This document shows, piece after piece, positions 2,658 through 64,000 of a stretch of 64,000 nt of DNA. The notes under the pieces were generated by a model. The model saw nothing but the letters and a program-made list of their open reading frames with translations. It ran no database searches and was not told the DNA's origin. The position numbers were made by a program, and so were the translations under genes. Position 1 is the first letter of the stretch, and each line of letters starts with the position of its first letter. Location: the NCBI RefSeq assembly GCF_900102795.1, contig NZ_FMWG01000002.1, positions 434,001 through 498,000 of the forward strand, read 5' to 3'. The stretch comes from Epibacterium ulvae. Lineage in GTDB: Bacteria; Pseudomonadota; Alphaproteobacteria; Rhodobacterales; Rhodobacteraceae.

Positions 2658-2735
2658 GGGAGTTCCTTTCAGTCACGGGGTTTCCATGGCCGGGACATCT
2701 GATCGTTCGATTTGTTCGGAAGCGTGTTTGATTGG

Positions 2736-2752: not shown

Positions 2753-2844
2753 GGGGTGATCGGGCGGAATGGGGGAAAACCGATGAGGTACGGTAGTGAC
2801 CGGGCAGTGCTCAATTTGGGGTGCTGGAACTTGGGTAGAAAAAA

Positions 2845-2883: not shown

Positions 2884-2932
2884 GCACCTAAAAACGGGGC
2901 TAATTTGGGCCAAAACGGGGAAAAAGCGCAAA

Positions 2933-3955: not shown

Positions 3956-3988
3956 GCGCTGGACATTCTGGCGCTGAGCCGCTCTTTT
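3947..3988 (+). terminator. Terminator of dusA
   Basis: Two stacked 5-bp stems, GCGGC/GCCGC and AGCGC/GCGCT, separated by a small internal loop, followed by TCTTTT. The left arm overlaps the dusA stop codon. Confidence 0.5.
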
Positions 3989-4017
3989 CCCACTAATCAA
4001 CTTGAGGTGGGGAGAGA

Positions 4018-4851: not shown

Positions 4852-4853
4852 CG

Positions 4854-5093: not shown

Positions 5094-5106
5094 AGTCCCG
5101 CGCTCC

Positions 5107-5580
5107 TTAAGTCGTCTTGAGATGGCGCAATCGATCCAATGCGCCTTGCAGGATATATGAGGCTGCGACGTTATCAATCAACTCTGCACGCCGTTTTCTT
5201 GAGGTGTCCGCTTCCAAAAGCGCACGCTCAGCCGCGACGGTGGAAAGGCGTTCATCCCAAAAGCCGATGGGTAATTCTGTGATCCGGTTCAAATTGCGGG
5301 CAAATGCGCGGGTTTTCTGGCATCGTGGTCCTTCGCTGCCGTCCATGTTGCGGGGCAATCCCAAGAGGAGGCCATTGAGTTCCCGATTGGCGATGATCTC
5401 TAGCAGGCGCGCGCTATCAAGCGTAAATTTCTTGCGCTTGATCGTTTCCAGCGGAGTAGCAGCTGTGCCCAACCGGTCTGATATGGCAACGCCGATGGTT
5501 TTATCGCCTAGGTCCAACCCCGCAAGGGCGCTCATCGGAGGAAGAGCCGCTGCGAAATCTTCGATTGTCTCATAGATCAT
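5107..5580 (-). CDS. ruvX: Putative pre-16S rRNA nuclease / Holliday junction resolvase-like RuvX (YqgF)
   Basis: A 157-residue YqgF-family protein with an RNase H-like fold, linked in E. coli to 5' processing of 16S rRNA and annotated elsewhere as a Holliday resolvase. Visible motifs are GLDLGDKTIGVAISD with the first catalytic aspartate, LLLGLPRNMDGSEGPR, and FWDERLSTVAAERALLEAD with the second acidic pair; D in AELIDNVAASYILQ supplies the third. Length is normal. Its ATG overlaps the ccmI stop by 4 bases, so the two are translationally coupled. Confidence 0.92.
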   Translation of the reverse strand: MIYETIEDFAAALPPMSALAGLDLGDKTIGVAISDRLGTAATPLETIKRKKFTLDSARLLEIIANRELNGLLLGLPRNMDGSEGPRCQKTRAFARNLNRITELPIGFWDERLSTVAAERALLEADTSRKRRAELIDNVAASYILQGALDRLRHLKTT

Positions 5581-6803: not shown

Positions 6804-7029
6804 CTGCTCTCCCCCGTCAAACGTCTCATACTTTGGTCAGTCTCTATAGAGATGCAGCCTCAGACAAAAGCCCCAATGACTGCGACTTTGGCGCGCGCCC
6901 TTTGGTATTGAATTGTGTCACACGGTCAGGCAGATGTCGCAAAGTTACAGAAAACAGCCGATAAACGGCAGGCGCTGATATCACCGCATGTCGCATATAT
7001 ATTGCAATCTTGACTCATCGGATTCGCCA

Positions 7030-8274: not shown

Positions 8275-8864
8275 TGGAACTATATTTGCTTTCTATCGTA
8301 CTCCCAGCGCTTGGGTTCGTTTCTGCGGCGATTGGCGTTTTAGTGAGCGCAGAGGCTGATAGGAGTGGATGGCTCAAACGTTTGGGGCCATTGAGAACGG
8401 CTACAATTTTTGTTTCTCTAGCCTTCGCGATTTGTACAGCGTGGGTGGGGTACTTGCAGCATTTGTCAGGTGAAAAGCTGAATGGTCAGCTTGATGAGGC
8501 AAATAGAAAACTTGATCAGGCGAATATGGAACTAGCTCGAGTCAGCGAGGTCTCGCGGACTGCAGAAGGAGAAAAGTACTTTCACAATCAGTTGGTTGGG
8601 GAACTTAACCAAATTGTTCTGGATGGTGTGAAAGGAGCCGGAACGTTGTCGCTTCACGTTACCGGATATTGTGAAGTCGCAGAAGTTGGAATGACGAACA
8701 TAATCGGTAAGTACAAAAAAATACAAGCTGGCCCATTGGTGTTTTCAGTGAAAGTTCCTGCTGACGCAGTCTCTGTTGTGGTCAAAAAGCAACCTCCTAA
8801 TTTGTCAACCGGTAGATCCTTTGGTCAGCTTTGTAAGGCTCACTATAAGTTCGTGAAGGAGTGA
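8274..8864 (+). CDS. Unknown two-helix membrane protein inserted in the sarcosine oxidase operon
   Basis: I do not recognise this 196-residue protein. It has two membrane helices (about 2-24 and 39-58), then a coiled-coil-like stretch (about 64-100: LNGQLDEANRKLDQANMEL), then a globular part with scattered Val and Lys. Its ATG overlaps the soxB stop (TGATG), so it is coupled to soxB, and its last codons contain AAGGAG, which serves as the soxD ribosome binding site. Codon use looks more AT-rich (CTA, AGA, TTT) than in the flanking sox genes, suggesting later insertion. Sarcosine oxidase operons usually have soxB directly followed by soxD. A helper or sensor role is possible but unsupported. 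Confidence 0.75.
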   Translation: MELYLLSIVLPALGFVSAAIGVLVSAEADRSGWLKRLGPLRTATIFVSLAFAICTAWVGYLQHLSGEKLNGQLDEANRKLDQANMELARVSEVSRTAEGEKYFHNQLVGELNQIVLDGVKGAGTLSLHVTGYCEVAEVGMTNIIGKYKKIQAGPLVFSVKVPADAVSVVVKKQPPNLSTGRSFGQLCKAHYKFVKE

Positions 8865-8871
8865 TAGCCAA

Positions 8872-9201
8872 ATGCTCATCCTTAAATGTCCCTATTGCGG
8901 CGTTGAAGCCGAAGAAACCGAACTCACTGCAGGCGGCGAAGCGCATCTGAAGCGCTTTGGCCCCGGCTCATCTGATGATGAATTCCACGACTACCTTTTT
9001 ACGCGGGAAAACCCTAAAGGCGTACATTTCGAACGCTGGCGCCATGCGAATGGCTGTGGCAAATGGTTTCATGCGGCCCGCTGCACGCAGACCTTGGAAG
9101 TGTTTGGCACCTACAGCGCGCAGACAACCGAACCCCCGCAAGAGATCAAAGATAAGATTGCCGCCAAACGTCCGGGCTGGACCTGGCGCGAGTTTTCTTG
9201 A
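8872..9201 (+). CDS. soxD: Sarcosine oxidase subunit delta
   Basis: Small zinc-binding subunit of heterotetrameric sarcosine oxidase that helps the complex assemble. The 109-residue protein starts MLILKCPYCGVEAEE, with CPYC as two metal ligands, and continues with HANGCGKWFHAARC, which supplies the rest; it ends in PGWTWREFS. Length and motifs are typical. The ATG sits 10 bases after AAGGAG inside the end of the upstream unknown gene. Confidence 0.95.
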   Translation: MLILKCPYCGVEAEETELTAGGEAHLKRFGPGSSDDEFHDYLFTRENPKGVHFERWRHANGCGKWFHAARCTQTLEVFGTYSAQTTEPPQEIKDKIAAKRPGWTWREFS

Positions 9202-9271
9202 TGTCACGTGTGACATCTTATTTTTCCGTTTGGGGCATCTGGCCCCGCTCCAGCGCAGAAGGTTCGTGTAG

Positions 9272-12200
9272 ATGAGCACTCGTATTTCGTCATCCGCCGC
9301 TCCCAGATTCGGTCGATTGATTGATCGTGACCAGCCCGTCACTTTTACCTTTAATGGTGCGCCTTTGCAGGGTTATGCAGGTGATACGCTGGCTTCTGCT
9401 CTACTGGCCAACGATCAGATGCTTGTTGGACGCTCTTTTAAATACCACCGTCCGCGCGGCGTGGTTGCAGCAGGCGCCGAAGAGCCGAACGCGCTGGTGG
9501 GCCTTGGTCGCAACGAACGGTTCGAACCGAACCAGCGCGCCACCACAACAGAGTTGTTTCACGGTCTCGAAGCACAAAGCCAAAACCATTGGCCAAGCCT
9601 GAACTTTGATATTGGCGTGTTGAACAGCAAACTGTTCTCTCGTTTTTTGACTGCGGGCTTTTATTACAAGATGTTCATCCATCCACGCCCGTTCTGGAAA
9701 CATATCTACGAACCCTTCATTCGCCAATCTGCAGGGCTTGGAAAAGCGCCAGATACTGAACTAAAAGACGCAGATACCTACGAACATTTCTATTTTTTCT
9801 GTGATGTCTTGGTTGTCGGTGGCGGTGTTGCCGGGTTGCAGGCTGCGAAATCCGCTGCCGCCTCTGGTGCAAAGGTATTGCTGCTCGAACAAAACGCCTA
9901 TTGGGGCGGTCGCGCTCCGGTTGATGGTGGTTTAATCGACGGCGAAGCGCCTGAGGTCTGGATCGAGAAAACTCGCGCGGATCTCGCTGCACTTGAGAAT
10001 GTCACCCTACGCAGCCGCTGCATGGGTGCCGGGATCTATGATCATGGCTATGCGCTTGGATATGAACGCCTCACGGATCATGATCCGAAACTCTTTGGTC
10101 CACGCCATCGCCTGTGGCGCATTCGTGCCAAACAGATTGTAACGGCGACCGGCGCGGTTGAAAGACCCTTGTCCTTTGCTGGAAACGATGTGCCGGGCGT
10201 CATGCTGGCCTCTGCAATGCGAGAGTATGCGGTGAACTGGGGTGTTCTTCCCGGACAACGCATATTGATCGCAACCAACAATGATGATGCCTATCGCACC
10301 GCATTATGCCTGCAGGACGCTGGGGCTGAAATTACTTGCGTGGTTGATGCGCGCCCCAATGGCGGTGGTGCCTTGATGGAAGAAGTGCGCGCGCGCGGCA
10401 TTCGGATTGAAACCGGGTATGCGATCAAAAAAGTACAGGATGGCAAACGGGTTCATCGTGTGGCGCTTTGTGCTCAGGATAGCGATGGCACGGATTTTGA
10501 AGAGGTAGATGTCGATGCGGTCGCCATGTCAGGCGGTTGGTCCCCTGTTGTGCATCTTTGGTCTCACTGCGGTGGGAAACTGATCTGGGATGAAACACAG
10601 GCTCATTTCAGACCAGATGCAGATCGTGCACCGACAAGCCATGATGGCGCAGGATTTGTTTGGGCGGCTGGCAGTGCCAATGGAGATATGACGTTGCAGG
10701 GGGCTGTCTCAGATGGCGCCCATGCCGGTGCAAAAGCTGCAGAGGCTGCAGGGTTCTCGGCCCAAATGCCAGATGCGCCCAACTGTGATGAGACAGTCGA
10801 AGCAGCGCTTTTGGCGGTCTGGTCGATGCCAGCTAAGGCGGGCATTAAACTACGTATGAAAACGTGGCTTGATTACCAAAACGACGTGAAAGTGTCGGAT
10901 GTTCAGCTTGCCGCGCGTGAAGGCTATGAAAGCGTCGAACATACCAAACGCTATACCACATTGGGCATGGCCACGGATCAGGGAAAGCTTTCTAATATCA
11001 ACGGTCTGGCTGTTCTGGCCGACAGTCTGGGTGCTGAAATACCACAGGTCGGAACAACCACATTCCGCCCACCTTATCATCCCATTTCGATGGGGGCGAT
11101 TGGCGGCGAAGCACGTGGTGAAGTTTTCCAACCTCTGCGCAAAACGCCGATCTATAGCTGGAACGATAAAAACGGTGCCCATTGGGAGCCGGTTGGCCAG
11201 TGGCGTCGCCCATTCGCCTATGTTCGGGACGGGGAGACGGTGCATGAGGCGGTCAATCGTGAAGTAAAAAATACGCGCGAAAACCTTGGACTGCTTGATG
11301 CTTCAACCCTTGGAAAGTTGGTTGTAAAAGGGCCAGATGCGGGCAGGTTCCTTAATATGATGTATACTAACATGATGTCGAACCTGAAAATTGGCAAATG
11401 CCGCTATGGTCTGATGTGTTCAGAGAATGGCTTTTTGGTGGATGACGGTGTCGTCGCACGTATCGATGAAGACACATGGTTGTGTCACACCACCACCGGC
11501 GGCGCTGATCACATTTACAGCCATATGGAAGAATGGCTGCAAACGGAATGGTGGGATTGGAAAGTCTATGTTGCCAATGTCACGGAACAATACGCGCAAA
11601 TCGCTGTGGTTGGCCCCAATGCGCGTAAAGTGCTGGAAAAGCTGAATGCTCAAGCCAACGGTGGCATGGATGTTTCTAAAGAGGCGCTGCCATTCATGGA
11701 GTGGCGCGATGGCACAATCGGCGGCTTTGATGCGCGTGCATATCGGATTTCGTTCTCGGGTGAACTGTCTTACGAAATAGCGGTTCCCGCGTCGCAAGGG
11801 GCCGCCTTTTGGGAGGCACTGATCGAGGCGGGTCAAGAATTTGGCGTGATGCCTTATGGCACTGAAACCCTGCATATTCTGCGCGCTGAAAAAGGGTTTA
11901 TCATGATCGGGGATGAAACTGACGGCACGGTCATTCCACAGGATTTGGGTTTGAACTGGGCCTTGTCTAAGAAGAAAGACGATTATCTGGGCAAGCGTGC
12001 GCATGGCCGTAGTCATATGCAGGATCCTGATCGCTGGCAGCTTGTCGGTTTGGAAACACTGGATGGATCAGTTCTGCCTGAGGGGGCTTATGCCGTTGGC
12101 GGTGGATATAATGGCAATGGCCAGCGCAATACCATAGGGCGCGTGACCTCAACCTATTACTCTGCAAACTTGGGCCGTGGGATTGCCATGGGACTGGTGA

Positions 12201-12322
12201 AACATGGCCCCAAACGAATGGGTGACGTGATCACATTCCCGGGTACCGATGGTACCGAATATCACGCCAAGATCGTTGATCCTGTTGTATATGACAAAGA
12301 GGGCGAGAAACAAAATGTCTAA
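9272..12322 (+). CDS. soxA: Sarcosine oxidase subunit alpha
   Basis: The 1016-residue large subunit carries NAD and the folate-binding domain. In order: an N-terminal [2Fe-2S]-like fold without the cysteine cluster (about 15-100), a Rossmann dinucleotide domain with LVVGGGVAGLQAAKSAAASG near 180, and a C-terminal glycine-cleavage-T-like (aminomethyltransferase) domain from about 610 (TFRPPYHPISMGAI, LGLLDASTLGKLVVKGPDA). This is the usual architecture and length. It is the largest gene of the sox operon and overlaps soxG by 8 bases. With SoxB it channels the methylene to tetrahydrofolate. Confidence 0.96.
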   Translation: MSTRISSSAAPRFGRLIDRDQPVTFTFNGAPLQGYAGDTLASALLANDQMLVGRSFKYHRPRGVVAAGAEEPNALVGLGRNERFEPNQRATTTELFHGLEAQSQNHWPSLNFDIGVLNSKLFSRFLTAGFYYKMFIHPRPFWKHIYEPFIRQSAGLGKAPDTELKDADTYEHFYFFCDVLVVGGGVAGLQAAKSAAASGAKVLLLEQNAYWGGRAPVDGGLIDGEAPEVWIEKTRADLAALENVTLRSRCMGAGIYDHGYALGYERLTDHDPKLFGPRHRLWRIRAKQIVTATGAVERPLSFAGNDVPGVMLASAMREYAVNWGVLPGQRILIATNNDDAYRTALCLQDAGAEITCVVDARPNGGGALMEEVRARGIRIETGYAIKKVQDGKRVHRVALCAQDSDGTDFEEVDVDAVAMSGGWSPVVHLWSHCGGKLIWDETQAHFRPDADRAPTSHDGAGFVWAAGSANGDMTLQGAVSDGAHAGAKAAEAAGFSAQMPDAPNCDETVEAALLAVWSMPAKAGIKLRMKTWLDYQNDVKVSDVQLAAREGYESVEHTKRYTTLGMATDQGKLSNINGLAVLADSLGAEIPQVGTTTFRPPYHPISMGAIGGEARGEVFQPLRKTPIYSWNDKNGAHWEPVGQWRRPFAYVRDGETVHEAVNREVKNTRENLGLLDASTLGKLVVKGPDAGRFLNMMYTNMMSNLKIGKCRYGLMCSENGFLVDDGVVARIDEDTWLCHTTTGGADHIYSHMEEWLQTEWWDWKVYVANVTEQYAQIAVVGPNARKVLEKLNAQANGGMDVSKEALPFMEWRDGTIGGFDARAYRISFSGELSYEIAVPASQGAAFWEALIEAGQEFGVMPYGTETLHILRAEKGFIMIGDETDGTVIPQDLGLNWALSKKKDDYLGKRAHGRSHMQDPDRWQLVGLETLDGSVLPEGAYAVGGGYNGNGQRNTIGRVTSTYYSANLGRGIAMGLVKHGPKRMGDVITFPGTDGTEYHAKIVDPVVYDKEGEKQNV

Positions 12323-12881
12323 GGCAATCAGCGCTCTAGAGGGCGCTTCCTTTTCTGGCCTCGCAAATATTTCTGAAAGTGGCTTAACGGGCATGATCAC
12401 CGTACGCGGTGATTTCAGCAACGCAGTGTTTCAAAAAAATATCGAGTTAGCTACAGGATGCACTGTCCCCTCGATACGAAAGATCTCGCAATCCGGTAGC
12501 AACACAGTGGTCTGGATGTCGCCAGATGAACTGTTGATTGTGACAGCACACGTAAATGCGCAGGGTTTGGTTTTGCAGCTTGAGGAAGCGCTGAAAGACC
12601 AACACGCACTTGTTGCAAATGTTTCTGATGCACGCGTCTGTTTTTCGATCTCAGGTGTAGATGCGCGGGAGGTTCTGTCAAAATTGGCACCCGTCGATTT
12701 TACCGAGACGGAGTTTCAGGCAGGAGATGTAAGACGCACACGTGTCGCACAGATTGCGGCAGCGGTCTGGCAAGATGACAGTGGCGACTTTACTTTGGTG
12801 TGTTTCCGGTCTGTTGCTGAATATGCATTCAATCTTTTGAAAACCGCTGCACATCCGCTGTCTGGGGTTATGGCGCAGTAA
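12315..12881 (+). CDS. soxG: Sarcosine oxidase subunit gamma
   Basis: The fourth subunit, 188 residues, related to the aminomethyltransferase fold. Recognisable are WMSPDELLI, the ANVSDARVCFSISG stretch and VCFRSVAEYAFNLL near the end. ATG 12315 overlaps the soxA stop by 8 bases, which fixes the start better than the frame opening at 12249. It completes the operon; no folate, serine or betaine genes follow here, unlike in some relatives. Confidence 0.9.
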   Translation: MSKAISALEGASFSGLANISESGLTGMITVRGDFSNAVFQKNIELATGCTVPSIRKISQSGSNTVVWMSPDELLIVTAHVNAQGLVLQLEEALKDQHALVANVSDARVCFSISGVDAREVLSKLAPVDFTETEFQAGDVRRTRVAQIAAAVWQDDSGDFTLVCFRSVAEYAFNLLKTAAHPLSGVMAQ

Positions 12882-12979
12882 ATTTTGGCGTCTTGAATTT
12901 ATGTTCTCACTTAGGTTGTGTTGTGGCTTATGTGTCGGTAGTAATTTGTTTTATTGAATTAATTTAACTGGTGAATCGA

Positions 12980-13378
12980 ATGAAAAAGCTCTTTTTAGCA
13001 ACAGTTCTTGTTATATCTTCAGTCGCAGCTGCACAGTCCGAAACATATCGTTGTAAATTCCATGATCCGGGTCGCTACAATACAATTCCAAAAGAGGTGT
13101 TGGTAAAGGTCGCTCCAAATAACGCAGGCGCTGAGGTTGTTGACCCTATCTTGCTCTCAGAGCGCCAAGCTCCGAAAGCGGCGCGATTTGTTGACAACAA
13201 CAGCAAATTACTACGTGTGCGCTGGCGTGTTGACGGTGCAACCTTTAGAGGGGGCGCAAAGTCCGACATGGATTTCTCTATGGTTTATCGGAAAGCGCGC
13301 AATCGTGCATCGATTACGCTGACGATTGCAAACTTCGACAATACAGATTCTGGAACCGGTCACTGCGTTCTTGAGTAA
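12980..13378 (+). CDS. Unknown small secreted protein
   Basis: I do not recognise the 132-residue product. It begins with a clear signal peptide (KKLFLATVLVISSVAAAQS, cleavage near residue 19), so it is probably periplasmic. The mature part has two cysteines (YRCKFHDPG and TGHCVLE), which could form one disulphide, and many beta-prone residues. The ATG at 12980 or a GTG three codons earlier could be the start; neither has a strong ribosome binding site. It is single between the sox operon and sodB. Confidence 0.65.
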   Translation: MKKLFLATVLVISSVAAAQSETYRCKFHDPGRYNTIPKEVLVKVAPNNAGAEVVDPILLSERQAPKAARFVDNNSKLLRVRWRVDGATFRGGAKSDMDFSMVYRKARNRASITLTIANFDNTDSGTGHCVLE

Positions 13379-54423: not shown

Positions 54424-55620
54424 TTAGGTCTGATCGGAAGCTAGCGGTGCCGTAAGCGCACGGGTGAGAACCAAAATGCCGAGCGCAAGGACAGCGCCAA
54501 GCGCTGCCAGCTGTATTACGGCTTGAAAGCTATGATACTGGCCAATTGCACCCACCAATGGACCGGCGATTAGACCGCTGACCATAAGTGTATTCCAATA
54601 GATGGCTGTTGCACGTGCAAAGCGTCCATTTGCAAAGCTTTGCACGAAAGTGATGCTGAGGCTTGCATAGAACCCATAATACAGCCCTTCAATGGCGGCT
54701 CCCAGCATCATCATTTTCAGGCTGTTGATCTGCGCCAGAAATTCAATCGCGACGATGGCAAGGATCAAAGTACCTCCCAGTGTAAGACGCACGCCAAACC
54801 GCTGGATGAAGTAAGGAGTAGAGAGAATAGCAAAGATTTCGACAAAGGTTTTGATCGAAAAATGCAGGCCGGGTGCAAAGGTGGGCAGGTTCACCTCTTG
54901 CACGTAAAACAGCGGCAGGGCGGAAAAGGTCAGCGAATGTGCGGTTGAAAGGCAAAAGCAAACAAGCGCTGCTAGGTAAAGAGCATGATCTGACAAGGGG
55001 GCATGGGGTGCGGAGGCTCGCGTAGCCTTATCTGATTTGGTGAGACTGGTCATATTGCGCGGCACAATGTGCCACCAAAGCGTAAGCCAGATCACAACCA
55101 GTGCTGCGCAAACTCGAAAGACAAACGGCGCGCCTAAACTGTCTGCAATGACAAAAGATAGGGCAGGGCCCATCATCCAACCAGTGGATGTCGTGGCGCG
55201 CATAAAAGCATTGAACTGTTCTGTGGGGATCTTGCGCGCTTCGGCGTAACTGCGGCTCAGGGTGAACATCGTCGACACTGCGCTGGAGCCAAAGCTAAAC
55301 CCAATCACGCCAAAAGTTAGCGTGACCCAGAGCGTTGGGGAAAGCGACAAGGCACATGCCGCCATCAAATACCCGCTTGCAGCGATACCAATCAGCGGAA
55401 ACACGGGGTTCCCTGCATCCATGGCCTTTGCGAAACGTTTATTTAAAAACAATGTCAGTGCAACAACAAGGACAGAATAGACGCTTAAAATCAGCGGCGC
55501 ATTCTCTAGGTCCTCAACGATGAAATACCCCATGAAGGGAACGATCATAGAACTGCACAGCGTCCCGCTGAGTTGCAGTGCCAAGAAAGGCAACGCGCTG
55601 CGAAAGTCAGAAAATGTCAT
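54424..55620 (-). CDS. MFS transporter, sugar-efflux-like
   Basis: A 398-residue major facilitator with about 12 hydrophobic segments. It resembles SetA-type sugar efflux carriers in its general pattern (SIKTFVEIFAILSTPYF, LSITFVQSFANGRFARATAIYWNTLM). The family N-terminus starts at ATG 55620. Substrate is unknown; it lies next to but past the terminator of the tct operon, so it is probably separate. Confidence 0.72.
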   Translation of the reverse strand: MTFSDFRSALPFLALQLSGTLCSSMIVPFMGYFIVEDLENAPLILSVYSVLVVALTLFLNKRFAKAMDAGNPVFPLIGIAASGYLMAACALSLSPTLWVTLTFGVIGFSFGSSAVSTMFTLSRSYAEARKIPTEQFNAFMRATTSTGWMMGPALSFVIADSLGAPFVFRVCAALVVIWLTLWWHIVPRNMTSLTKSDKATRASAPHAPLSDHALYLAALVCFCLSTAHSLTFSALPLFYVQEVNLPTFAPGLHFSIKTFVEIFAILSTPYFIQRFGVRLTLGGTLILAIVAIEFLAQINSLKMMMLGAAIEGLYYGFYASLSITFVQSFANGRFARATAIYWNTLMVSGLIAGPLVGAIGQYHSFQAVIQLAALGAVLALGILVLTRALTAPLASDQT

Positions 55621-55728
55621 TGTAAAATAATCCAAAAGTACTGTCGCGCTAAGGCATGCAACCTGACATGGTTCCTGCGCTGCAAGCAAATGAAGCTTTT
55701 ATGTCATGCGAAGTGTGATGTATGACAT

Positions 55729-55755
55729 AAAAAAAGGGCGCGGAATGCGCCCTTT
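55729..55755 (-). terminator. Terminator of the acnD-prpF-tctCBA operon
   Basis: AAAGGGCGC and GCGCCCTTT with a five-base loop, followed on the minus strand by TTTTTTT. A strong intrinsic terminator just after tctA. Confidence 0.88.
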
Positions 55756-55778
55756 GAAAGATTGTATCAGCTTACCTC

Positions 55779-57272
55779 TTAGGTTTTGGCTTTGCGGTTC
55801 CTCACCGAGGGTAAGACGATAAGCAATGCCGCAAAGATCAGTAGGCCAAGTGTCATCGGGCGCTCCCAGATAAAACCAACCCCATCGTACAGCTGCATTG
55901 CACGGGCAAAGTTGTTTTCAAGCAATGGCCCAAGAATAAACCCGATCAGCAATGGCGCGAGAGGGTAGTTGGCAAACCGGAGTAAAGTTGCCCCAATGCC
56001 AAATCCGATCAGGATCAACAGCTCTGCTGCGTTATTTTGCCCGATGTAAGCCCCCATCAGAGTAAAGAACAAAATAAAGGGGATCAGAAAATTCCGTGGA
56101 ACCGCCAATACCTTTGCAATGTAAGGGATCAGAGGCAGGTTCAGGATCAACAACACCAAATTGCCAAGATACATTGAAACAATCACCGCCCAAAAGATCT
56201 GCGGCTCATCAATCATCAAACGCGGTCCTGGAGAGACGTTAAGCGCGATAAGCGCACCAAGCAAAATTGCAGTTGTTCCAGATCCTGGAATCCCAAGCGT
56301 CAAGAGTGGCACAAACGAGCCGGTACAGGCTGCGTTATTGGCGCTTTCGGGTGCCGCGATACCTTTAATGGCCCCTTTGCCAAATTCGTCCTGTTCATGC
56401 TTGGGGGCAATGTTGCGTTCAACTGCGTAGCCAAGGAAAGATGCGATTGTAGCCCCTGCGCCGGGGAGCACGCCAATAAAGAAGCCTTGCAAAGACTGTC
56501 GCCCGATAACGGGAGCAATTTTACGTGCTTCATCCCTGCTGATACGCAGATCTTTGATTTCGCCGCTGTTGTCATCGCCAGTTTTGGAGCGGGTGGGGTC
56601 CAGCACCAGATAGATCGCTTCGGGGAGGGCAAACATCGCCATGGCGAGTGTAACAAACCCAAAGCCAGATTGCAGCTCCATCACCCCCATAGTGAAACGG
56701 GCAGAGTTAAACAGAACGCCTTCGCCAACCGTGGCCATGATGAGGCCCAGAAACGTCATCAGCAGTGCTTTTGAGACCTGACCAGTGCCCGCAAAGGCCG
56801 CAATGGCGGACAATCCCACGACCATCAGTGCAAAATACTCTGAGGAATGAAACAAAAGCGCGACCGAAGCCAGCGCAGGTGCAAAGATCATCAAGAGAAT
56901 TGCACCAATGGTTCCCCCTGAAAAAGAGGCAATCGCGGCGATGGTCAGGGCTTTACCCGCTTTGCCTGCGCGTGCCATCGGATAGCCATCAAAGGATGTC
57001 GCCACTGTTGAGGCCACGCCGGGTGCATTGATCAATATCGACGAGGTCGATCCGCCAAAAACCGCGCCATAGTACACCCCTGCCAGCAGGATCAGCGCAG
57101 CAGAAGGATCACCAATGGTGATGGCAATCGGGATCATGATAGCAATGATCGACATCGGCCCAAGGCCGGGCAACATGCCGATAAATGTCCCGATCAAACA
57201 TCCACCGATGACCATCAGGATGTTTGTAAACGTAAAGGCCGTGGCAAGACCTGTTAAAAGTCCTTCCAGCAT
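55779..57272 (-). CDS. tctA: Tripartite tricarboxylate transporter, large membrane subunit TctA
   Basis: A 497-residue membrane subunit that moves tricarboxylates across the inner membrane. It starts MLEGLLTGLATAFT and has GCLIGTFIGMLPGLGPM, YGAVFGGSTSSILINAPG and GIPGSGTTAILLGALI, the TctA signatures. It lies one base after tctB and ends at the terminator. Confidence 0.94.
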   Translation of the reverse strand: MLEGLLTGLATAFTFTNILMVIGGCLIGTFIGMLPGLGPMSIIAIMIPIAITIGDPSAALILLAGVYYGAVFGGSTSSILINAPGVASTVATSFDGYPMARAGKAGKALTIAAIASFSGGTIGAILLMIFAPALASVALLFHSSEYFALMVVGLSAIAAFAGTGQVSKALLMTFLGLIMATVGEGVLFNSARFTMGVMELQSGFGFVTLAMAMFALPEAIYLVLDPTRSKTGDDNSGEIKDLRISRDEARKIAPVIGRQSLQGFFIGVLPGAGATIASFLGYAVERNIAPKHEQDEFGKGAIKGIAAPESANNAACTGSFVPLLTLGIPGSGTTAILLGALIALNVSPGPRLMIDEPQIFWAVIVSMYLGNLVLLILNLPLIPYIAKVLAVPRNFLIPFILFFTLMGAYIGQNNAAELLILIGFGIGATLLRFANYPLAPLLIGFILGPLLENNFARAMQLYDGVGFIWERPMTLGLLIFAALLIVLPSVRNRKAKT

Positions 57273-57273
57273 A

Positions 57274-57762
57274 TCAGCTCCCCATCAGAAAAAAAGGAAA
57301 GGGGCTTAGGAAAATCCCCAAAACGGCATCCACCAGATACCAGACTGTGCCGGCCGCGATGGCAGAGACCAGCGCCATCAATCCAAAACGTCGCTCGCCC
57401 AGAATAAGACTGCCTCCGACGAGGAAAAGGAAGGTGCTGCCAAGAAACCCAAAGGGGCGCAGCAAGATCGCATAAACGACCATCAGTCCTAGTAAAAGTA
57501 CGGCCTGGCCGACGTTATATTCCCAAAGGCGAGACAGATTAATGTCGCTCTGTGGCTGTTCTGAGCTGCGTTCTAAGTTAAATAAAACGCTGAGAGACAT
57601 GAGCACGCCACCAACGGCAAGCACTTTGGGAAAACTGGATGGCCAAATCGGGCTGCGCCGCATAATCGGAGGCAGCAGGTCATCCATCAGGAAATATGCG
57701 GAATAGCCGTAGAGCACGCATACAAAGAAAAGGGCCAGAGCGATCCAACGGTCTAGAGCCAT
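57274..57762 (-). CDS. tctB: Tripartite tricarboxylate transporter, small membrane subunit TctB
   Basis: A 162-residue protein with four helices (IALALFFVCVLYGYSAYF, VLAVGGVLMSLSVLF). The GGAGG before ATG 57762 decides this start against earlier in-frame ATGs at 57777 and 57831. TctB gives the small membrane subunit for TctA; spacing shows an operon. Confidence 0.85.
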   Translation of the reverse strand: MALDRWIALALFFVCVLYGYSAYFLMDDLLPPIMRRSPIWPSSFPKVLAVGGVLMSLSVLFNLERSSEQPQSDINLSRLWEYNVGQAVLLLGLMVVYAILLRPFGFLGSTFLFLVGGSLILGERRFGLMALVSAIAAGTVWYLVDAVLGIFLSPFPFFLMGS

Positions 57763-57846
57763 ATCGCTGTCCTCCATCACTTGCGGAAAAGCCCGGCGCG
57801 TGGGTGCGCCGGGTTGATGTTTGAAGATCAAACAGTGTCGGTCAGA

Positions 57847-58830
57847 TTATAGGAAGCCAAGCTTGCGCATCAGATCACCGATTACCTGTTCTTGATTTTC
57901 AAGGAAGCTCCGGAATTCATCGCCGTTGTTGTGAATGTTGACCCAACCATTGCGCTGGCGTACGGCTTCCCATTCAGGGGTGTCGTACATCTTTGTCAGC
58001 GCGTCCTGATATGAGGAAAGTTTGTCCTCTGGCAGGCCGGGGGCTGCGAAGAAACCACGCCAGTTTACAAAGGTGGTATCATTGCCTTGTTCAACCATGG
58101 TTGGGGCATCCGGGAAGGCATCGACACGGGCATCTGCGGTAACGCCGATAATGCGCACTTCGCCCGCTTTGGCGAGTTCTACCGCCTCAGAAAACCCGGT
58201 TGAGACGGCTTTGACCTCACCGGACAACAAACCTGCCATGGTTGCGCCACCACCATCATATGGCACGTATTTCAGATCCAAAGGATCTGCACCCGCGGAT
58301 TGAAAGACCATGGCGGCGACAAGGTGATCCATACCACCCGGCACAGAGCCACCGCCAATAGCAACGCTGCGAGGATCTGCTTTGAAGGCATCAATCAGAC
58401 CGTTTACATTCTGAATATCACTGTCTGCGGCAACTACTAGTGCGGCATAATCGCCAATTGTGCCTGCAACCAATGTCAGGTCACGGAAATTCTGCGGGAA
58501 CACACCGGTAAGCGAGCGAATGACAATGGGAGTTGAGTTGACCATCAGCGTGCCATGTTGGCTGGCCGCGTTTTCAATCAGATAGCCAATGGCCTTGCCA
58601 CCTCCGCCACCAGACATGTTTTCATATGAGGCTGTTCCAACCAAACCAGCGCCAGTCAGCGCCTCGCCGGTACCACGCGCAGTGCCATCCCATCCACCAC
58701 CGGCGCCGCCGGGGATCAAAAAGTGCACACTGTCCAACACAGGATCAGCCGAGGCCAGCGGTGCGCCTAAGCTGAGGCTGGCCACAGCAAAACCCAATGC
58801 AGCGCGACGGCTAAATTTTAAAATACTCAT
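57847..58830 (-). CDS. tctC: Tripartite tricarboxylate transporter, binding protein TctC
   Basis: A 327-residue periplasmic binding protein of the TctC/Bug family. A signal peptide (ending ASA near 28) is followed by VHFLIPGGAGGGWDGTARGTG and YVPYDGGGATMAGLLSGEV, typical for the family. These bind carboxylates such as citrate; the ligand here is not determined. It lies between prpF and tctB. Confidence 0.92.
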   Translation of the reverse strand: MSILKFSRRAALGFAVASLSLGAPLASADPVLDSVHFLIPGGAGGGWDGTARGTGEALTGAGLVGTASYENMSGGGGGKAIGYLIENAASQHGTLMVNSTPIVIRSLTGVFPQNFRDLTLVAGTIGDYAALVVAADSDIQNVNGLIDAFKADPRSVAIGGGSVPGGMDHLVAAMVFQSAGADPLDLKYVPYDGGGATMAGLLSGEVKAVSTGFSEAVELAKAGEVRIIGVTADARVDAFPDAPTMVEQGNDTTFVNWRGFFAAPGLPEDKLSSYQDALTKMYDTPEWEAVRQRNGWVNIHNNGDEFRSFLENQEQVIGDLMRKLGFL

Positions 58831-58853
58831 GTTTTCCTCCCGTTACATGAATT

Positions 58854-58876
58854 ACCTAATCTTGTATCGATTAGGT
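58854..58876. promoter_or_regulatory. Perfect inverted repeat in the prpF-tctC gap
   Basis: ACCTAATC-ttgtatc-GATTAGGT is an 8-bp perfect inverted repeat in the 99-base gap upstream of tctC. It may be an operator (IclR or other) or an internal promoter site. Confidence 0.5.
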
Positions 58877-58929
58877 CATATGAGGTCTCGGAACCTTTTT
58901 GAGGCTCTCGTTCACCAAAGTTACTGCGT

Positions 58930-60084
58930 TCAGGGGGTGTCTATCTCTTTGCGCAGTAGGTCGTCTGGGTAGTGAACTGCACCGCTCATGATGCAGCGTT
59001 GTGTGCGAAAGGTCGTGGCCGATCGCGCACTTTGGGTTGGGCCAATTGCCTCGACCTCAGCATCAACGGGCAATACACCCGAAGGGTTGCCCACGCGTAT
59101 AGTCTTGGCATCGCCACCGATCTGTGCCGGAAGACTGCCCTCAAGTTTACAAGCGACTGCCACGCACATACCGCCTGACAGTGTAATTGCTTTATGAAAG
59201 TTCCCCATTGAAATCAGCCGCACCGCGATGTCATGACTGTCTGCTGAATTGCAGCGACCATCAAGCGAGGTAAACTCGCGAGGGTGTGCAACCATTGCAA
59301 CCTTGGGATTGGACAGTGGGATTTCTTCCGCACATGTTGCCATTCCCATAGCCACGCCACCTGCACGGCGGATCTCATCCATACGGTGCATCAATTCTGC
59401 ATTGTTGTCCAATGTTTCTGGCGCTTCATGTCCGGTGCAGCCAATATCGCGTGCCCGCACAAAAACAACTGGATTGGCCGCATCAATTAAAGAGACTTCG
59501 AAACGTTCACCACTGCCAGTTATGATGTTATCAACCTCGTGACCGGTTGGCAGTAACGCCCCGGTGACCGCACCCCCCGGGTTCAGAAAATCAAGACGGA
59601 TGGGGGCACCGCTGCCGCTTACACCGGGAATTTCAAAATTGCCGTCTTCAAGTGCAGCGCCATCTTTGACGGCGAACTCGGCCTGATAGATCTGACCTGT
59701 ATTGGTGTTGTGAATGCGCACTTGGCAGGTCTCATCCGTTGGGGTCACAAACCCCTCACGCACGGCAAAAGGTCCGACACAGGAGGACATGTTTCCACAG
59801 GTCGAACCATAATCTGCAACCGGCGCTCTGACGGCGATCTGGACAAAGGTGTAATCCACATCTGCGTCAGGATGCGTTGAGGGGCCGACAATCACCACTT
59901 TAGAGAGAGAGGAAAGCCCGCCACCTAATCCATCCAGCTGGCGTCCATTTGGATCTGGACTGCCCAGAACATGAAGAAAAATACGATCACGCAGCGCTTG
60001 ATCGGTTGGGAGATCCTTGCTGTTGAAGACCACCGCTTTGGACGTCCCACCCCGATAAAACGCAGCACGCAGAGATTGAACCAT
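58930..60084 (-). CDS. prpF: PrpF-family isomerase (2-methylaconitate isomerase-like)
   Basis: A 384-residue enzyme of the PrpF family, which moves the double bond of 2-methylaconitate or related carboxylates. The catalytic pair from Shewanella PrpF (Lys73 and Cys107, 34 apart) matches Lys62 (SLSKVV) and Cys96 (GSTCGN), also 34 apart. It overlaps the acnD stop by 1 base, showing coupling. The family also includes methylitaconate isomerase and oxalomesaconate tautomerase, so the substrate is open. Confidence 0.86.
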   Translation of the reverse strand: MVQSLRAAFYRGGTSKAVVFNSKDLPTDQALRDRIFLHVLGSPDPNGRQLDGLGGGLSSLSKVVIVGPSTHPDADVDYTFVQIAVRAPVADYGSTCGNMSSCVGPFAVREGFVTPTDETCQVRIHNTNTGQIYQAEFAVKDGAALEDGNFEIPGVSGSGAPIRLDFLNPGGAVTGALLPTGHEVDNIITGSGERFEVSLIDAANPVVFVRARDIGCTGHEAPETLDNNAELMHRMDEIRRAGGVAMGMATCAEEIPLSNPKVAMVAHPREFTSLDGRCNSADSHDIAVRLISMGNFHKAITLSGGMCVAVACKLEGSLPAQIGGDAKTIRVGNPSGVLPVDAEVEAIGPTQSARSATTFRTQRCIMSGAVHYPDDLLRKEIDTP

Positions 60085-62678
60085 TACGCAGCCCCCGCAA
60101 GGAATTTGCGGAACGCGCGCGGCAGCAGACCGCCTTCTGAAAAAGTCGCGCGCTCTGCGTCATTGTACAAGCGCAGATCAAGGGGGGTCGTGGTTTTTCT
60201 GCCATCTTCACGCGTGATTGTCAGCTCTGCCGATGTCAGCGCTTCATTCAAATGGATGTCAAACAATTCGCTGCCATCAAGTTCAAGCGTCTTGCGTGTG
60301 ACCCCTTCGGGGAAACACAATGGGGCGATCCCCATATTAACCAGGTTAGACCGGTGGATACGTTCGAAACTTTCGGCAATGACAGCGCGGATTCCGGCAA
60401 GCCAAGGTGCCTTTGCTGCGGTGTCGCGGGACGAGCCGCATCCATATTCTTTTCCGCCAATCACCACGAGCGGCTGTTCACGCCCAAGATAGGTTTCGAT
60501 GGCATTAAAGATCGTGGTGACACGCCCTTCAGGCTGAATGCTGGTCCAGGATCCCTCGCGATCTGGAACCATCTCATTGCGCAAACGATAGTTTGCAAAT
60601 GTGGAGCGGATGACCACATCTGAACAGCCACGGCGGGTGCCAAAGGAATTAAAATCCCGGTGTGCAACACCATGGCGTTGCAAAAACTGCCCCGCTTCTG
60701 ACTCTGGTGTAATGATCCCAGACGGCGAGATATGATCCGTGGTGACACTATCGCCCAAGATCACCAACGGCCGTAGGCCACGTAGGGTGGTCACTGGTGT
60801 GTTGGCAGCCCGGATGTCTTTCACAAAGGGTGGGAAAGAAACATAGGTAGAAGGCGTCCAGTCATATCGACCCGCGCCCACCTGCATCGCAGTCCATTGT
60901 GCATTGATTGTATCTATACTGTTGTAATTGTCACGAAACTCTTCTGGCGTCACATGTGCCTCGATCAATGCAGACACTTCGTCTGCATCTGGCCAAAGGT
61001 CATCCAGATAGACCGGTGCGCCGTCTTGATCATGGCCAAGCGGCGCGCTGGAAATATCTGTAAGCACAGAACCCGCCAGCGCATAAGCGATCACCAATGG
61101 CGGGGATGCAATCATATTGCGTGAGGCCAATGGGTGGATACGTCCTGCAAAGTTTCGGTTCCCCGACAGCACCGCGATGCCTTTCACGTCATGGGCGCGA
61201 ATGGTTTCTTCATGTGCCGGGTGCAGGGGGCCAGACATGCCGTTGCAGGTCGAACAGGAAAAGGCCGCAATTTCAAATCCAAGTTTGCTGAGATCTTCCT
61301 GCAGACCGCTTTGTTTAAGATACCGCGCCACAACACGAGAGCCCGGCGCAAGCGATGTCTTTACGTGGGGTTTTACCTGCAACCCTTTTGCGACGGCTTT
61401 TCGGGCCATCAGCCCTGCCATTATCATATTGCGCGGATTTGCGGTGTTTGTGCAGCTGGTGATTGCAGCGATGATAACATCGCCATTACCAATGTCATGG
61501 GCAGGTAAGCTGCCGCTTTGGTCCACAACAGCCACTCTGTGATCAGCCTCTTCAACCGAGGTAAGCTGTTTCGTGGCGTCTGCCAGATCGATCCGTTGTT
61601 CTGGGCGAGAGGGGCCAGACACGGCGCGGCCAATCTGGCTTAGATCAATGTGAACGACCTCGTCATACTCTATCGCAGTGTCAACGCCATCATTCCAAAG
61701 GCCCTGAACCTGACAATAGGCTTGGGTGCGTGCGCTGTGCTCTCCGCGTCCAGTTTGGTTCAGATAGTGGATCGTGTTCTCATCAACCGGGCAGAACACC
61801 ATGGTTGATCCATATTCGGGGGCCATATTCGCGATGGTTGCACGATCTGCGACGCTTAGTGTGTTGTAGCCAGTCCCAAACATTTCAACAAATGTATCAA
61901 CCACGCCAAGAGCGCGCAGTTTTTCGGCCACAACCAGCGCGATGTCCGTGGCTGTAATATCGTGTGAGGGCGCGCCTGTGACTTCAAGCCCGACAACGCG
62001 GGGCACATTCACCGAAGAGGTTTCACCAAACAGTAGCGCTTCGGCTTCCAGTCCGCCAATCCCCCAGCCCATAACGCCAAGCGCATTGATCATCGGTGTA
62101 TGGCTGTCTGTACCTAGCGAGGAGTCTGGGATCAAAAGATGCGGGTTTTCGTTGGACGGCAGAACCGTATGGCCAAGATATTCCAGATTGACCTGATGGC
62201 AGATGCCGCTACCGGGAGGCATGACACGCAGGCGGGGAAAGCGGTCTGCGCAGGCCTTCAGAAAGGCAAAACGCTCCCGGTTTACTTCAAATTCGCGTTG
62301 CATGTTTTGTTCAAGTGCAAATTTATCTGCCCAGTGATTGATCGACATGGCGTGATCAATAATCAGATCCACTGGCAGGCTCATATCAACCGTGCTCGGA
62401 TCTCCGCCATGTGCCTCAAGGTGGTCGCGAATGGCCATAATATCGATCAGGGCAGGGATGCCGAGCATATCGTGAAGCAACAGACGGGCTGGGCGAAAGG
62501 GCACCGCATCCCCCTTGCGTGCCGCGACCTGCAACGCCGCCTCACCCTCTGTGGAATGACGTGCCGCGTTTTCGGCAAGAACGCGTAACGAATAGGGCAG
62601 GGTGCGCGTGCGGTCTCCCAATAGGGCACGATAATCAAGGGCTTTAAGGGGCGAATTGGGAATGTCGAGGTAGTGCAC
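60084..62678 (-). CDS. acnD: AcnD-type 2-methylisocitrate dehydratase
   Basis: An 864-residue [4Fe-4S] aconitase-superfamily enzyme. Cluster cysteines are C409 in AAITSCTNT and C475/C478 in FSCSTCNGMSG. The NGMSG form is that of AcnD, not AcnA (which has IGNSG, as in the gene at 41,492). AcnD needs PrpF for 2-methylcitrate use. The start is a GTG at 62678 after AGGAG. The next gene, prpF, overlaps it. Substrate range cannot be fixed by sequence. Confidence 0.86.
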   Translation of the reverse strand: MHYLDIPNSPLKALDYRALLGDRTRTLPYSLRVLAENAARHSTEGEAALQVAARKGDAVPFRPARLLLHDMLGIPALIDIMAIRDHLEAHGGDPSTVDMSLPVDLIIDHAMSINHWADKFALEQNMQREFEVNRERFAFLKACADRFPRLRVMPPGSGICHQVNLEYLGHTVLPSNENPHLLIPDSSLGTDSHTPMINALGVMGWGIGGLEAEALLFGETSSVNVPRVVGLEVTGAPSHDITATDIALVVAEKLRALGVVDTFVEMFGTGYNTLSVADRATIANMAPEYGSTMVFCPVDENTIHYLNQTGRGEHSARTQAYCQVQGLWNDGVDTAIEYDEVVHIDLSQIGRAVSGPSRPEQRIDLADATKQLTSVEEADHRVAVVDQSGSLPAHDIGNGDVIIAAITSCTNTANPRNMIMAGLMARKAVAKGLQVKPHVKTSLAPGSRVVARYLKQSGLQEDLSKLGFEIAAFSCSTCNGMSGPLHPAHEETIRAHDVKGIAVLSGNRNFAGRIHPLASRNMIASPPLVIAYALAGSVLTDISSAPLGHDQDGAPVYLDDLWPDADEVSALIEAHVTPEEFRDNYNSIDTINAQWTAMQVGAGRYDWTPSTYVSFPPFVKDIRAANTPVTTLRGLRPLVILGDSVTTDHISPSGIITPESEAGQFLQRHGVAHRDFNSFGTRRGCSDVVIRSTFANYRLRNEMVPDREGSWTSIQPEGRVTTIFNAIETYLGREQPLVVIGGKEYGCGSSRDTAAKAPWLAGIRAVIAESFERIHRSNLVNMGIAPLCFPEGVTRKTLELDGSELFDIHLNEALTSAELTITREDGRKTTTPLDLRLYNDAERATFSEGGLLPRAFRKFLAGAA

Positions 62679-62714
62679 GTCTTGATCTCCTGAATTGGTT
62701 GAATGGTAGACAGC

Positions 62715-62755
62715 CGCCTAGATATGAGGCAAGTTGTGAACGTATTCGTTTCATC
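62715..62755. promoter_or_regulatory. Divergent acnD/iclR promoter region
   Basis: The 86-base gap contains an imperfect dyad TGAACG-tatt-CGTTTCA (one extra base). It is the natural place for an IclR operator controlling both acnD and iclR. Confidence 0.35.
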
Positions 62756-62764
62756 AGGTGAAAT

Positions 62765-63436
62765 ATGATCTCAGGTCAACGGACCGAAGCGGTCGAGCGC
62801 GCGATGTCGATTTTGAACGCGTTTTCGACCAAAACACCCAGCCTTTCATTGGCGGATCTTGCCGAAGAAACCGGGCTGCATAAAACCACGATTTTGCGGC
62901 TCACCAATTCTATGGCGATCTATGGATTTATCCAAAGAGATGATGCTGGAAAATTCACAGTGGGCCCCAGTGTTTGGCGGTTGGGATTGGTGTTTCGACA
63001 GGACTTCACCAAACGTGAACATGTTGCGCCTTCGCTTCGAATTTTAGCTGATGCCACAGGCGAAACTGCGTCTTTTTACGTTAAAGTTGGTAATGAAAGG
63101 GTTTGTTTATACAGGGAAAATTCCCCAAACCTGTTGCGATTTCATGTCGAAGAAGGTATGCGGTTAAAATTATCTACAGGGGCGTCGGGCTTGGTTCTGC
63201 GCCATTTCTCAGGTGAAGATGTAGGCAATCTGGATCGCTTTAATGCAAATGGGACCGCCGTCTCAGTCGGGCAAACCAATCCCAATATTTCCTCAATTGC
63301 GACCCCTGTGTTTGATGCCCAGAAACAATTGATCGGTGCGCTCACTGTGTCTGGTCTTGTCAACAGATTTGATGAAGAGGCACGCATGCGCACGATTCCA
63401 TTGTTGGAAAGCCTTGCGCGCGGTCTTGGAGCTTGA
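62765..63436 (+). CDS. IclR-family transcriptional regulator
   Basis: A 223-residue regulator with an N-terminal winged helix-turn-helix (LSLADLAEETGLHKTTILRLTNSM) and a C-terminal ligand-binding GAF-like domain (GETASFYVKVGNERVCLYRE). IclR proteins respond to small acids. It is divergent from acnD, and probably controls the cluster; AGGTGA precedes the ATG. Confidence 0.9.
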   Translation: MISGQRTEAVERAMSILNAFSTKTPSLSLADLAEETGLHKTTILRLTNSMAIYGFIQRDDAGKFTVGPSVWRLGLVFRQDFTKREHVAPSLRILADATGETASFYVKVGNERVCLYRENSPNLLRFHVEEGMRLKLSTGASGLVLRHFSGEDVGNLDRFNANGTAVSVGQTNPNISSIATPVFDAQKQLIGALTVSGLVNRFDEEARMRTIPLLESLARGLGA

Positions 63437-63548
63437 TCTGTCTTGAGCTCAGAAATTTCACTCAGTGAAACCTGTTTATTCGTTGCTTGTATCAATCTCA
63501 GTCGCTGATTAGGCAGAGAGCAAAACCCTGATTTGGAGGGCATTTGCT

Positions 63549-64000
63549 ATGATGAACCATGAAATTAACAAGGCGTTTCGCGCGCGTCTTAACAGTGGCA
63601 AAGCGGTTTTGATGCCGGGGGCCGCTAATGCGCTGGCCGCTCAGGTGATTGATCAAATCGGTTTTGAGGCCCTCTATATCTCGGGCGCGGGTGTCACCAA
63701 TACAGCGCTTGGCATGCCTGATCTTGGGTTCATTTCCCTGCCAGAAATCGCACAGCATACCGCGACCATTCGCAATGTAACTGACCTGCCAATTGTCGTG
63801 GATGCAGACACAGGATTTGGCAATGCGCTGAACGTGCATCACACTGTGCGCACCCTAGAGCGGGCAGGCGCCAGCGCCATTCAGATCGAGGATCAGGTTG
63901 CGCCAAAACGCTGTGGCCATTTTTCTGGTAAAGACATCGTGGATCTGGAGGAAGCACGCAGCCGGATCAAAGCGGCTGTGGACGCGCGTCAGGATCCAAA
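63549..64000 (+). CDS. PrpB/isocitrate-lyase-family C-C lyase (partial)
   Basis: The first 150 residues of a lyase; the gene runs past the window's end. It has the core VDADTGFG (84-91) and QIEDQVAPKRCGHFSGK with the catalytic KRCGH (120-124). Methylisocitrate lyase, dimethylmalate lyase and oxaloacetate hydrolases share this core. It follows iclR and faces away from acnD. Substrate cannot be told from the part seen. Confidence 0.82.
   Translation, partial: MMNHEINKAFRARLNSGKAVLMPGAANALAAQVIDQIGFEALYISGAGVTNTALGMPDLGFISLPEIAQHTATIRNVTDLPIVVDADTGFGNALNVHHTVRTLERAGASAIQIEDQVAPKRCGHFSGKDIVDLEEARSRIKAAVDARQDP

Follow-up and report, generated by a model that had tools for sequence, protein, structure and literature searches.

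The window is a 64,000-nucleotide stretch of the Epibacterium ulvae genome (G000:C18:434001-498000; assembly 99.7% complete, 30 contigs). A gene cluster at its right end encodes an aconitase-family hydratase (acn), a PrpF-superfamily isomerase (prpF), a tripartite tricarboxylate transporter (TTT; tctC, tctB and tctA), an IclR-family regulator and a lyase with a KRCGH loop. We consider it reasonably probable that this cluster is a self-contained, import-fed catabolic regulon without prpC, a counterpart of the AcnD-PrpF-PrpB segment of 2-methylcitrate use. The cluster probably serves to import an unusual branched organic acid, to rearrange it and then to cut it in two. The proposal is built on direct observations, which are the gene content and order, their conservation, the family placement of the proteins and the absence of prpC from the cluster.

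The acn and prpF genes lie on the minus strand and share 1 base. The tctC, tctB and tctA genes follow up to a terminator, and iclR and the lyase gene, both on the plus strand, are divergent from acn-prpF-tctC-tctB-tctA (Table 1). This arrangement had been described in the original prediction, and every gene was found where it had been placed. The same gene order recurs across other genomes, beyond chance. The lyase has 292 residues, and its stop codon lies 427 bases beyond the window. The next listed gene of at least 150 codons encodes a glutamine synthetase on the opposite strand. Because this gene follows the lyase, the cluster is considered to end there and to be complete. No gene for prpC, prpR or an acyl-coenzyme A (acyl-CoA) enzyme was found in the cluster when it was read through the window edge to the glutamine synthetase, so the absence of prpC and PrpR noted in the original prediction holds past base 64,000 as well.

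The three enzymes fall outside the clades of 2-methylcitrate enzymes

The hydratase had been named AcnD, and this name was not confirmed. The protein scores 804.4 bits against the AcnD model TIGR02333, far below the cut-off of 1419.85. It exceeds the cut-offs of three NCBIfam AcnA models (TIGR01341, 947.8 versus 945, a narrow pass; NF006757, 1067.7 versus 686; NF009520, 1053.1 versus 905), all of which are broad. Trees were built with 30 AcnD, 20 AcnA (19 plus the genome's own), 14 window-type aconitases including that of the window (W) and 9 PrpF-linked aconitases of lower similarity (44–50% identity; M). In the quick trees AcnD, AcnA and W each formed one clade with 98–100 support in the SH-like approximate likelihood ratio test (SH-aLRT), with 100 for W. 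The W clade sits on a long stem, and the genome's other AcnA groups inside the AcnA clade. The M aconitases were not a single clade in either tree, and the branching order among the W, AcnA and AcnD clades varied between the two. By model scores and tree placement, acn is an aconitase lineage of its own outside both the AcnA and the AcnD clade, and 'AcnD' describes it at the superfamily level only.

A sister relationship of W and AcnD was also considered, which had a support of 89 in the first tree. This join disappeared when the genome's second own aconitase and that of locus L117 were left out. Since it was lost on removal of two long branches, no kinship of W and AcnD is claimed. At least 90% conservation within each of W, AcnA and AcnD was found in 283 alignment columns, and 209 of them are identical in all three groups. 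Among the others, W alone differs in 24, W agrees with AcnA in 21 and with AcnD in 14, and all three differ in 15. One W-specific change is tryptophan to threonine in the residue after SSRD (position 753). Loss of an arginine was tried as an indicator that the substrate is a dicarboxylate, in the column that we take to be the equivalent of R699 of IRP1 and R580 of mitochondrial aconitase. This column holds arginine in 1/14 W, 2/9 M, 6/20 AcnA and 0/30 AcnD sequences. Because arginine is scarce in AcnA too, the column is no marker of AcnA function and the argument was dropped.

The window PrpF stays below both NCBIfam equivalog models (316.5 and 291.4 bits against about 440), the lower score being that against TIGR02334 for the methylcitrate-cycle PrpF (cut-off 440.55). 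Its top match among solved structures is 3-methylitaconate isomerase (3g7k, 291 bits), followed by a hypothetical protein (245 bits), PrpF (2pvz, 234 bits) and oxalomesaconate isomerase (189 bits). The catalytic lysine and cysteine are present, as K62 and C96 align to K73 and C107 of Shewanella PrpF. According to the excerpted text of PMC5690661, substitution of K73 or C107 abolished support of growth on propionate alone, although a less stringent test showed residual function of C107 variants. The PrpF tree had 106 rows, with 39 of 78 other PrpF rows kept. The 29 AcnD-linked PrpF proteins grouped as one clade in it, and a separate clade combined the PrpF proteins of the 14 W loci with that of L047. 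Both the models and the clade place the window PrpF as a member of the superfamily and not as the methylcitrate-cycle PrpF.

For the lyase, the previous assignment to the PrpB family stands at the level of the superfamily, but not in the narrow sense. The protein carries the K[KR]CGH loop and matches the isocitrate lyase (ICL)/phosphoenolpyruvate (PEP) mutase superfamily, and it reaches 290.3 bits against the PrpB model TIGR02317 with the cut-off of 354.4. By score the nearest solved protein is a methylisocitrate lyase (199 bits), followed by others so named; further matches are the petal death protein (186 bits) and dimethylmalate lyase (160 bits). In the printed alignments, the window lyase has NLVVGGKTP and FVEAP and the petal death protein has NMIEGGKTP and FVEAP, while methylisocitrate lyases have N-x-T-E-F-G in place of GGKTP. 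In PrpB, residue T212 presumably contacts the distal carboxylate. TEFG was present in all 18 control PrpB proteins obtained from 20 AcnD operons, the other two of which had no lyase match. A tree of 52 lyases placed the 25 GGKTP proteins in one clade (100/95) and the 18 PrpB proteins in another (100/100). The model score, the motif and the tree thus all argue that the window lyase is not PrpB in the narrow sense.

AcnD operons contain a citrate synthase homologue and the window-type clusters generally do not

For the AcnD control, 50 of 299 genomes had a protein above the AcnD cut-off, 30 AcnD proteins were collected, and 20 of these 30 loci were taken, extended upstream by about 5 kb. A search with the citrate synthase of the window genome (E <= 1e-8) gave a homologue in 20/20 AcnD operons, 0/14 W loci and 0/9 M loci. 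With three PrpC queries (E <= 1e-5), matches were found in 20/20 AcnD operons (at least 117 bits), 1/14 W loci (L046, 50 bits) and 0/9 M loci. These results agree with the view of the original prediction that this is an uptake-and-cleavage cluster unlike ordinary propionate operons.

The single match belongs to a region downstream of tctA in L046 (14290-16301), where a family III CoA-transferase gene is followed by a 293-aa Citrate_synt-family gene. Relatives of this 293-aa protein (58–100% identity) exist in 8/14 W genomes, and in G197, for which the contigs were compared, the relative and the cluster lie on different contigs. No protein of this type was found in the window genome, where only the genome's own citrate synthase matches. 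Because of the separate contig in G197, the L046 gene is read as a neighbour from another pathway, though it may belong to the cluster. Outside W and M, citrate-synthase-family genes were seen near prpF in L076 (5421-6560), L083 (555-1679) and L142 (1078-2214). Those of L076 and L083 have a MerR-type N-terminal part, and that of L142 is full-length.

The window genome has one citrate-synthase-family gene, located on another contig than the cluster, one PrpF, five aconitase-family genes, two PEP_mutase-family genes above the cut-off and two methylmalonyl-CoA-mutase-family genes. In the isocitrate-lyase family, no match was found in the genome except a weak one to the cluster lyase. A methylcitrate cycle is unlikely in this genome, given the single citrate-synthase-family gene and the methylmalonyl-CoA-mutase genes. 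Propionate could be used through methylmalonyl-CoA by methylmalonyl-CoA mutase.

The cluster recurs in other genomes with variation

In a survey of 390 genomes of the order, a PrpF match with E <= 1e-30 was found in 163. At least 43% identity to the window PrpF was observed in 16 genomes besides that of the window (17 loci), and below this level the scores fall from 257 to 218 bits. In these 17 neighbourhoods, acn adjoins prpF in three (L044, L045 and L046), and 13 carry a lyase within the stretch retrieved. For the GTDB collection, the 80 best of at least 543 confirmed PrpF loci were examined; 19 of these 80 have an acn of at least 44% identity beside prpF, and 2 more have a weak acn match. 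Together, the acn-prpF pair was found in 22 loci besides the window (3/17 and 19/80). The pair is present in the named alphaproteobacterial isolates Roseibium album, Ruegeria spongiae and Thalassospira profundimaris, and also in two named Actinomycetota, Dactylosporangium roseum and Sphaerisporangium album. Labels of metagenome-assembled genomes, for example Planctomycetaceae, may come from mis-binning.

Among the 14 W loci including the window, iclR is present in 12 and a lyase homologue in 11 (9 of the GGKTP type and 2 of the TEFG type, L071 and L077). A TTT was found in 9/14, of which 7 are of the window TctCBA type and 2 are other TTT systems. Several W contigs end early (L066, L067, L072 and L074), and many names of neighbouring genes in the related loci were assigned by eye. 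In L071, acn and PrpF are 64% and 58% identical to the window pair and the lyase passes the PrpB model (398 versus 354 bits). In 6/14 W loci (L045, L046, L064, L073, L074 and L077), prpF is followed immediately or almost immediately by a short RraA-family gene, and this is also the case in L076 and L083, both without acn. For L045 and L073, the RraA proteins score above the cut-off of the RNase E regulator model; their matches to models of 4-carboxy-4-hydroxy-2-oxoadipate aldolase are weak and under the cut-offs. An enzymatic role of these short proteins would fit the prpF context.

Some observations weigh against a self-contained regulon. No PrpF match at E <= 1e-30 was found in the 6 other genomes of the same genus, which makes the cluster an optional trait. 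No acn of at least 44% identity was seen in 61 of the best 80 PrpF relatives, some on short contigs, so the acn-prpF pairing is one PrpF context among several. L044 has acn-prpF-tctCBA with no iclR or lyase within 19.5 kb, and L070 has acn, prpF, iclR and lyase with no TTT match within 17 kb. The CoA-transferase and 293-aa citrate-synthase-family genes of L046 could also belong to the cluster.

Other arrangements were observed around related genes. In L054, L055, L056 and L058, GntR (assigned by eye), prpF and the lyase form a compact unit beside a different TTT and an AbrB-like gene; their lyase is about 70% identical to that of the window, and no acn match was found on these stretches. One protein cluster is shared by four acn-prpF loci (L067 9135-9845, L072 8909-9901, L110 1075-1830 and L135 10058-10738). 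Its L067 member is SBP_bac_3 by Pfam, has no signal peptide by eye and may be an enzyme or a sensor. The window genome itself has a second transporter cluster, L061 (G000:C13:1-15000, 2045-13177, minus strand), whose AcnA-type aconitase has a very long branch in the tree. This cluster also contains AbrB-like, short RraA, class II aldolase, DUF1537-type kinase, racemase-like and isopropylmalate/tartrate-dehydrogenase-like genes together with TctA, TctB, TctC and GntR (most assigned by eye).

A predicted pathway and its possible substrates

The pathway proposed for the cluster is a deduction from the gene families in its direction, its substrate class, every reaction and its regulation. TctCBA would take up a di- or tricarboxylate that is branched or substituted. 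Its double bond would then be shifted and hydrated by the PrpF-type isomerase together with the dedicated hydratase of the aconitase type to give a 2-hydroxy acid, and the KRCGH lyase would cleave this acid in a retro-aldol reaction, with a 2-oxo acid and a smaller carboxylate as products. IclR, which is encoded with the lyase, may control the divergent acn operon. Candidate substrates are a 2-methylcitrate-like compound, a branched dicarboxylate and trans-aconitate, and the lines of evidence for them conflict. The range given in the original prediction, a C6/C7 tricarboxylate or a methylated dicarboxylate, may still apply.

The first of these is a tentative possibility. With 2-methylcitrate or a close 2-alkylcitrate, acn would dehydrate the substrate, PrpF would move the double bond, an aconitase would rehydrate the product, and the lyase would give pyruvate (or another 2-oxo acid) and succinate. 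The action of AcnD and PrpF on 2-methylcitrate is one worked-out logic for an aconitase-PrpF pair (PMC5690661, excerpted text). The TEFG-type lyases of L071 and L077, of which that of L071 is above the PrpB cut-off, point in the same direction, as do a two-component pair (2CSK_N sensor and response regulator) next to the L073 transporter, which clustering also indicates for L065, and the CoA-transferase and short citrate-synthase-family protein after tctA in L046. In contrast, the window lyase departs from PrpB by score, motif and tree, and the window PrpF is closer to methylitaconate isomerase than to PrpF. These two features would fit a branched dicarboxylate, such as methylitaconate, dimethylmaleate, itaconate, citraconate or mesaconate, which is a rather doubtful substrate on present evidence. 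In this route PrpF would shift the double bond, acn would form a methylated malate, and the lyase would release glyoxylate or pyruvate and propionate without CoA. The top solved relative of PrpF and the FVEAP...GGKTP motifs, as in the petal death protein and unlike TEFG of the printed methylisocitrate lyases, are consistent with it, and the propionate could go through methylmalonyl-CoA mutase. However, a methylisocitrate lyase remains the closest solved match of the lyase by score (199 versus 186 and 160 bits), the AcnA-type acn differs from the two-subunit DmdAB of Eubacterium barkeri, an orthologous acn-prpF pair accompanies a PrpB-model lyase in L071, and the lost-arginine argument failed its control. 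This failure and the L046 citrate-synthase match slightly lower the odds of a dicarboxylate and raise those of a methylcitrate-like substrate. That the cluster imports and splits acids of the methylitaconate, itaconate or dimethylmaleate type into a 2-oxo acid and propionate without CoA, through a further lineage of PrpF-coupled aconitase and a lyase of the alkylmalate type, as an externally fed counterpart of the nicotinate-fermenter pathway, is likewise doubtful.

Use of trans-aconitate is unlikely. Here PrpF would be an aconitate isomerase and acn would form isocitrate for cleavage by the lyase or for the tricarboxylic acid cycle. The aconitate isomerases TarA and TbrA belong to the PrpF superfamily (PMC11495376, excerpted text), and Shewanella PrpF isomerises trans-aconitate (PMC5690661, excerpted text). 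On the other hand, the separate AcnA of the genome should suffice, a second aconitase and a lyase would not be needed, the window lyase has no TEFG, and the Bacillus system differs in its importer, regulator and enzymes as described below. A route for an oxalomesaconate- or oxalocitramalate-like compound with the help of an RraA-family aldolase is quite unlikely. The RraA-family genes next to or near prpF in 6/14 W loci, L076 and L083 and the weak aldolase-model matches of the two W proteins tested suggest such a route, but the window cluster has no RraA gene, and the same two proteins pass the RNase E regulator model and stay under the aldolase cut-offs. Finally, the three enzyme superfamilies are those of an ordinary propionate operon, whose prpC might be elsewhere in the genome. 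This explanation is highly improbable because the only citrate-synthase-family gene of a nearly complete assembly is on another contig, methylmalonyl-CoA-mutase-family genes are present, and all three enzymes lie outside the AcnD, AcnD-linked PrpF and PrpB clades.

Comparison with known systems

The cluster resembles the methylcitrate AcnD-PrpF-PrpB segment (Shewanella type) in having a pair of an aconitase-family enzyme and PrpF and a KRCGH lyase of the ICL superfamily. It differs by the lack of prpC, by the TTT importer and IclR inside the cluster, and by the tree positions of acn, PrpF and the lyase, each of which groups apart from its 2-methylcitrate counterparts. In Advenella mimigardefordensis, prpC-acnD-prpF-prpB, a CoA-transferase and TctC are in one region, and the imported compound is dithiodipropionate, as given in the excerpted text of PMC5373536. 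Methylcitrate-type enzymes are thus found near TctC and used with an imported compound there too, but that cluster has prpC and named AcnD and PrpB, and its substrate is a sulfur compound (same excerpt).

The nicotinate fermentation of E. barkeri uses the order Mii-DmdAB-Dml, in which the dimethylmaleate hydratase DmdAB has two subunits. An isomerase, an aconitase-superfamily hydratase and an ICL-superfamily lyase act in series there, and the window PrpF is nearest to 3g7k, the only E. barkeri sequence compared. In contrast, the window hydratase is a single AcnA-type chain (Aconitase and Aconitase_C), an uptake system is in the cluster, and no mutase is present. The petal death protein (PDB 1zlp) has alkylmalate lyase activity. 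It has the FVEAP and GGKTP motifs in common with the window lyase, but it is a plant protein, and the window lyase is tied to PrpF and a transporter.

The trans-aconitate systems tarRAB and tbrAB of Bacillus combine a PrpF-superfamily isomerase (TarA, TbrA) with a dedicated transporter (PMC11495376). They differ by the major facilitator superfamily (MFS) transporter and, for tar, the LysR regulator, and the excerpted part of that paper names no dedicated aconitase or lyase. Excerpts of other papers deal with a TTT system discussed as a possible importer only (PMC6370202), a CoA-dependent itaconate route (PMC12290011) and branched dicarboxylate use in Pseudomonas (PMC9875883). By title or abstract start, no publication on this gene set was found in the open-licence PMC literature. 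The enzyme superfamilies and the logic of the methylcitrate segment are known, and the separate lineages, the importer in the cluster and the lack of a synthase are what sets this cluster apart.

If the proposed regulon is real, annotations as AcnA/AcnD, PrpF and methylisocitrate lyase mislead on the pathway in various Alphaproteobacteria and some Actinomycetota, where such genes would serve the uptake of a branched organic acid and not propionate use. It would also add a further PrpF-coupled aconitase lineage, raise the question of the ligand of the TTT binding protein and perhaps point to an overlooked carbon source.

Transporter, regulator and promoter region

By gene content, TctA, TctB and TctC together make up a TTT. 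The matches of TctC to solved binding proteins are weak, and the ligands of those relatives are mixed. The start of tctB is more likely at about 57762, as the MALDRW start is common to L044 and L045 by comparison. The acn/iclR regions of 12 hand-chosen W loci with iclR were aligned with MAFFT. In this alignment, which had no shuffled control, C-x-G-xxx-AAA, TTG and GTCTA are the same in 12/12 regions and the spacers have diverged. In the window, the first conserved block reads TTTCA-N5-TGAAA on the plus strand next to the iclR start. The conserved blocks may naturally be read as an IclR operator and an acn promoter. The terminator scan found 8 terminators against a mean of 9.3 in shuffles, and the promoter scan was likewise near chance in number; the tctA terminator was therefore judged on its stem and place.

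Table 1. Features of the acn-prpF-tctCBA cluster (positions in the window)
Feature	Position	Strand	Basis
acn, aconitase-family hydratase of own clade (W)	60084-62678	-	Pfam Aconitase + Aconitase_C; NCBIfam; tree
prpF, PrpF-superfamily isomerase	58930-60084	-	Pfam PrpF (PF04303), 351 bits
tctC, periplasmic binding protein of TTT	57847-58830	-	Pfam PF03401
tctB, small membrane subunit	57274-57831	-	Pfam PF07331
tctA, large membrane subunit	55779-57272	-	Pfam PF01970, 466 bits
Intrinsic terminator 3' of tctA	55755-55733	-	9-pair stem, T tail
Divergent acn/iclR region, putative promoter and operator	62679-62764	.	Blocks kept among relatives
iclR, IclR-family regulator	62765-63436	+	Pfam HTH_IclR, IclR_C
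KRCGH lyase, GGKTP type	63549->64000, on to equivalent of 64427	+	Pfam PEP_mutase/ICL; motifs; tree

Just 3' of the terminator is an MFS gene (54424-55689, minus strand) with a weak match, under the cut-off, to a sugar efflux transporter. In L065 (9134-12170) and L073 (9671-12728), the interval between prpF (or rraA) and tctC is occupied by genes for a 2CSK_N sensor kinase, a response regulator and a protein of the solute-binding type. Two L073 genes and one L065 gene were assigned by Pfam, and the two-component pair of L065 was recognised by clustering. The two-component pair presumably resembles TctDE.

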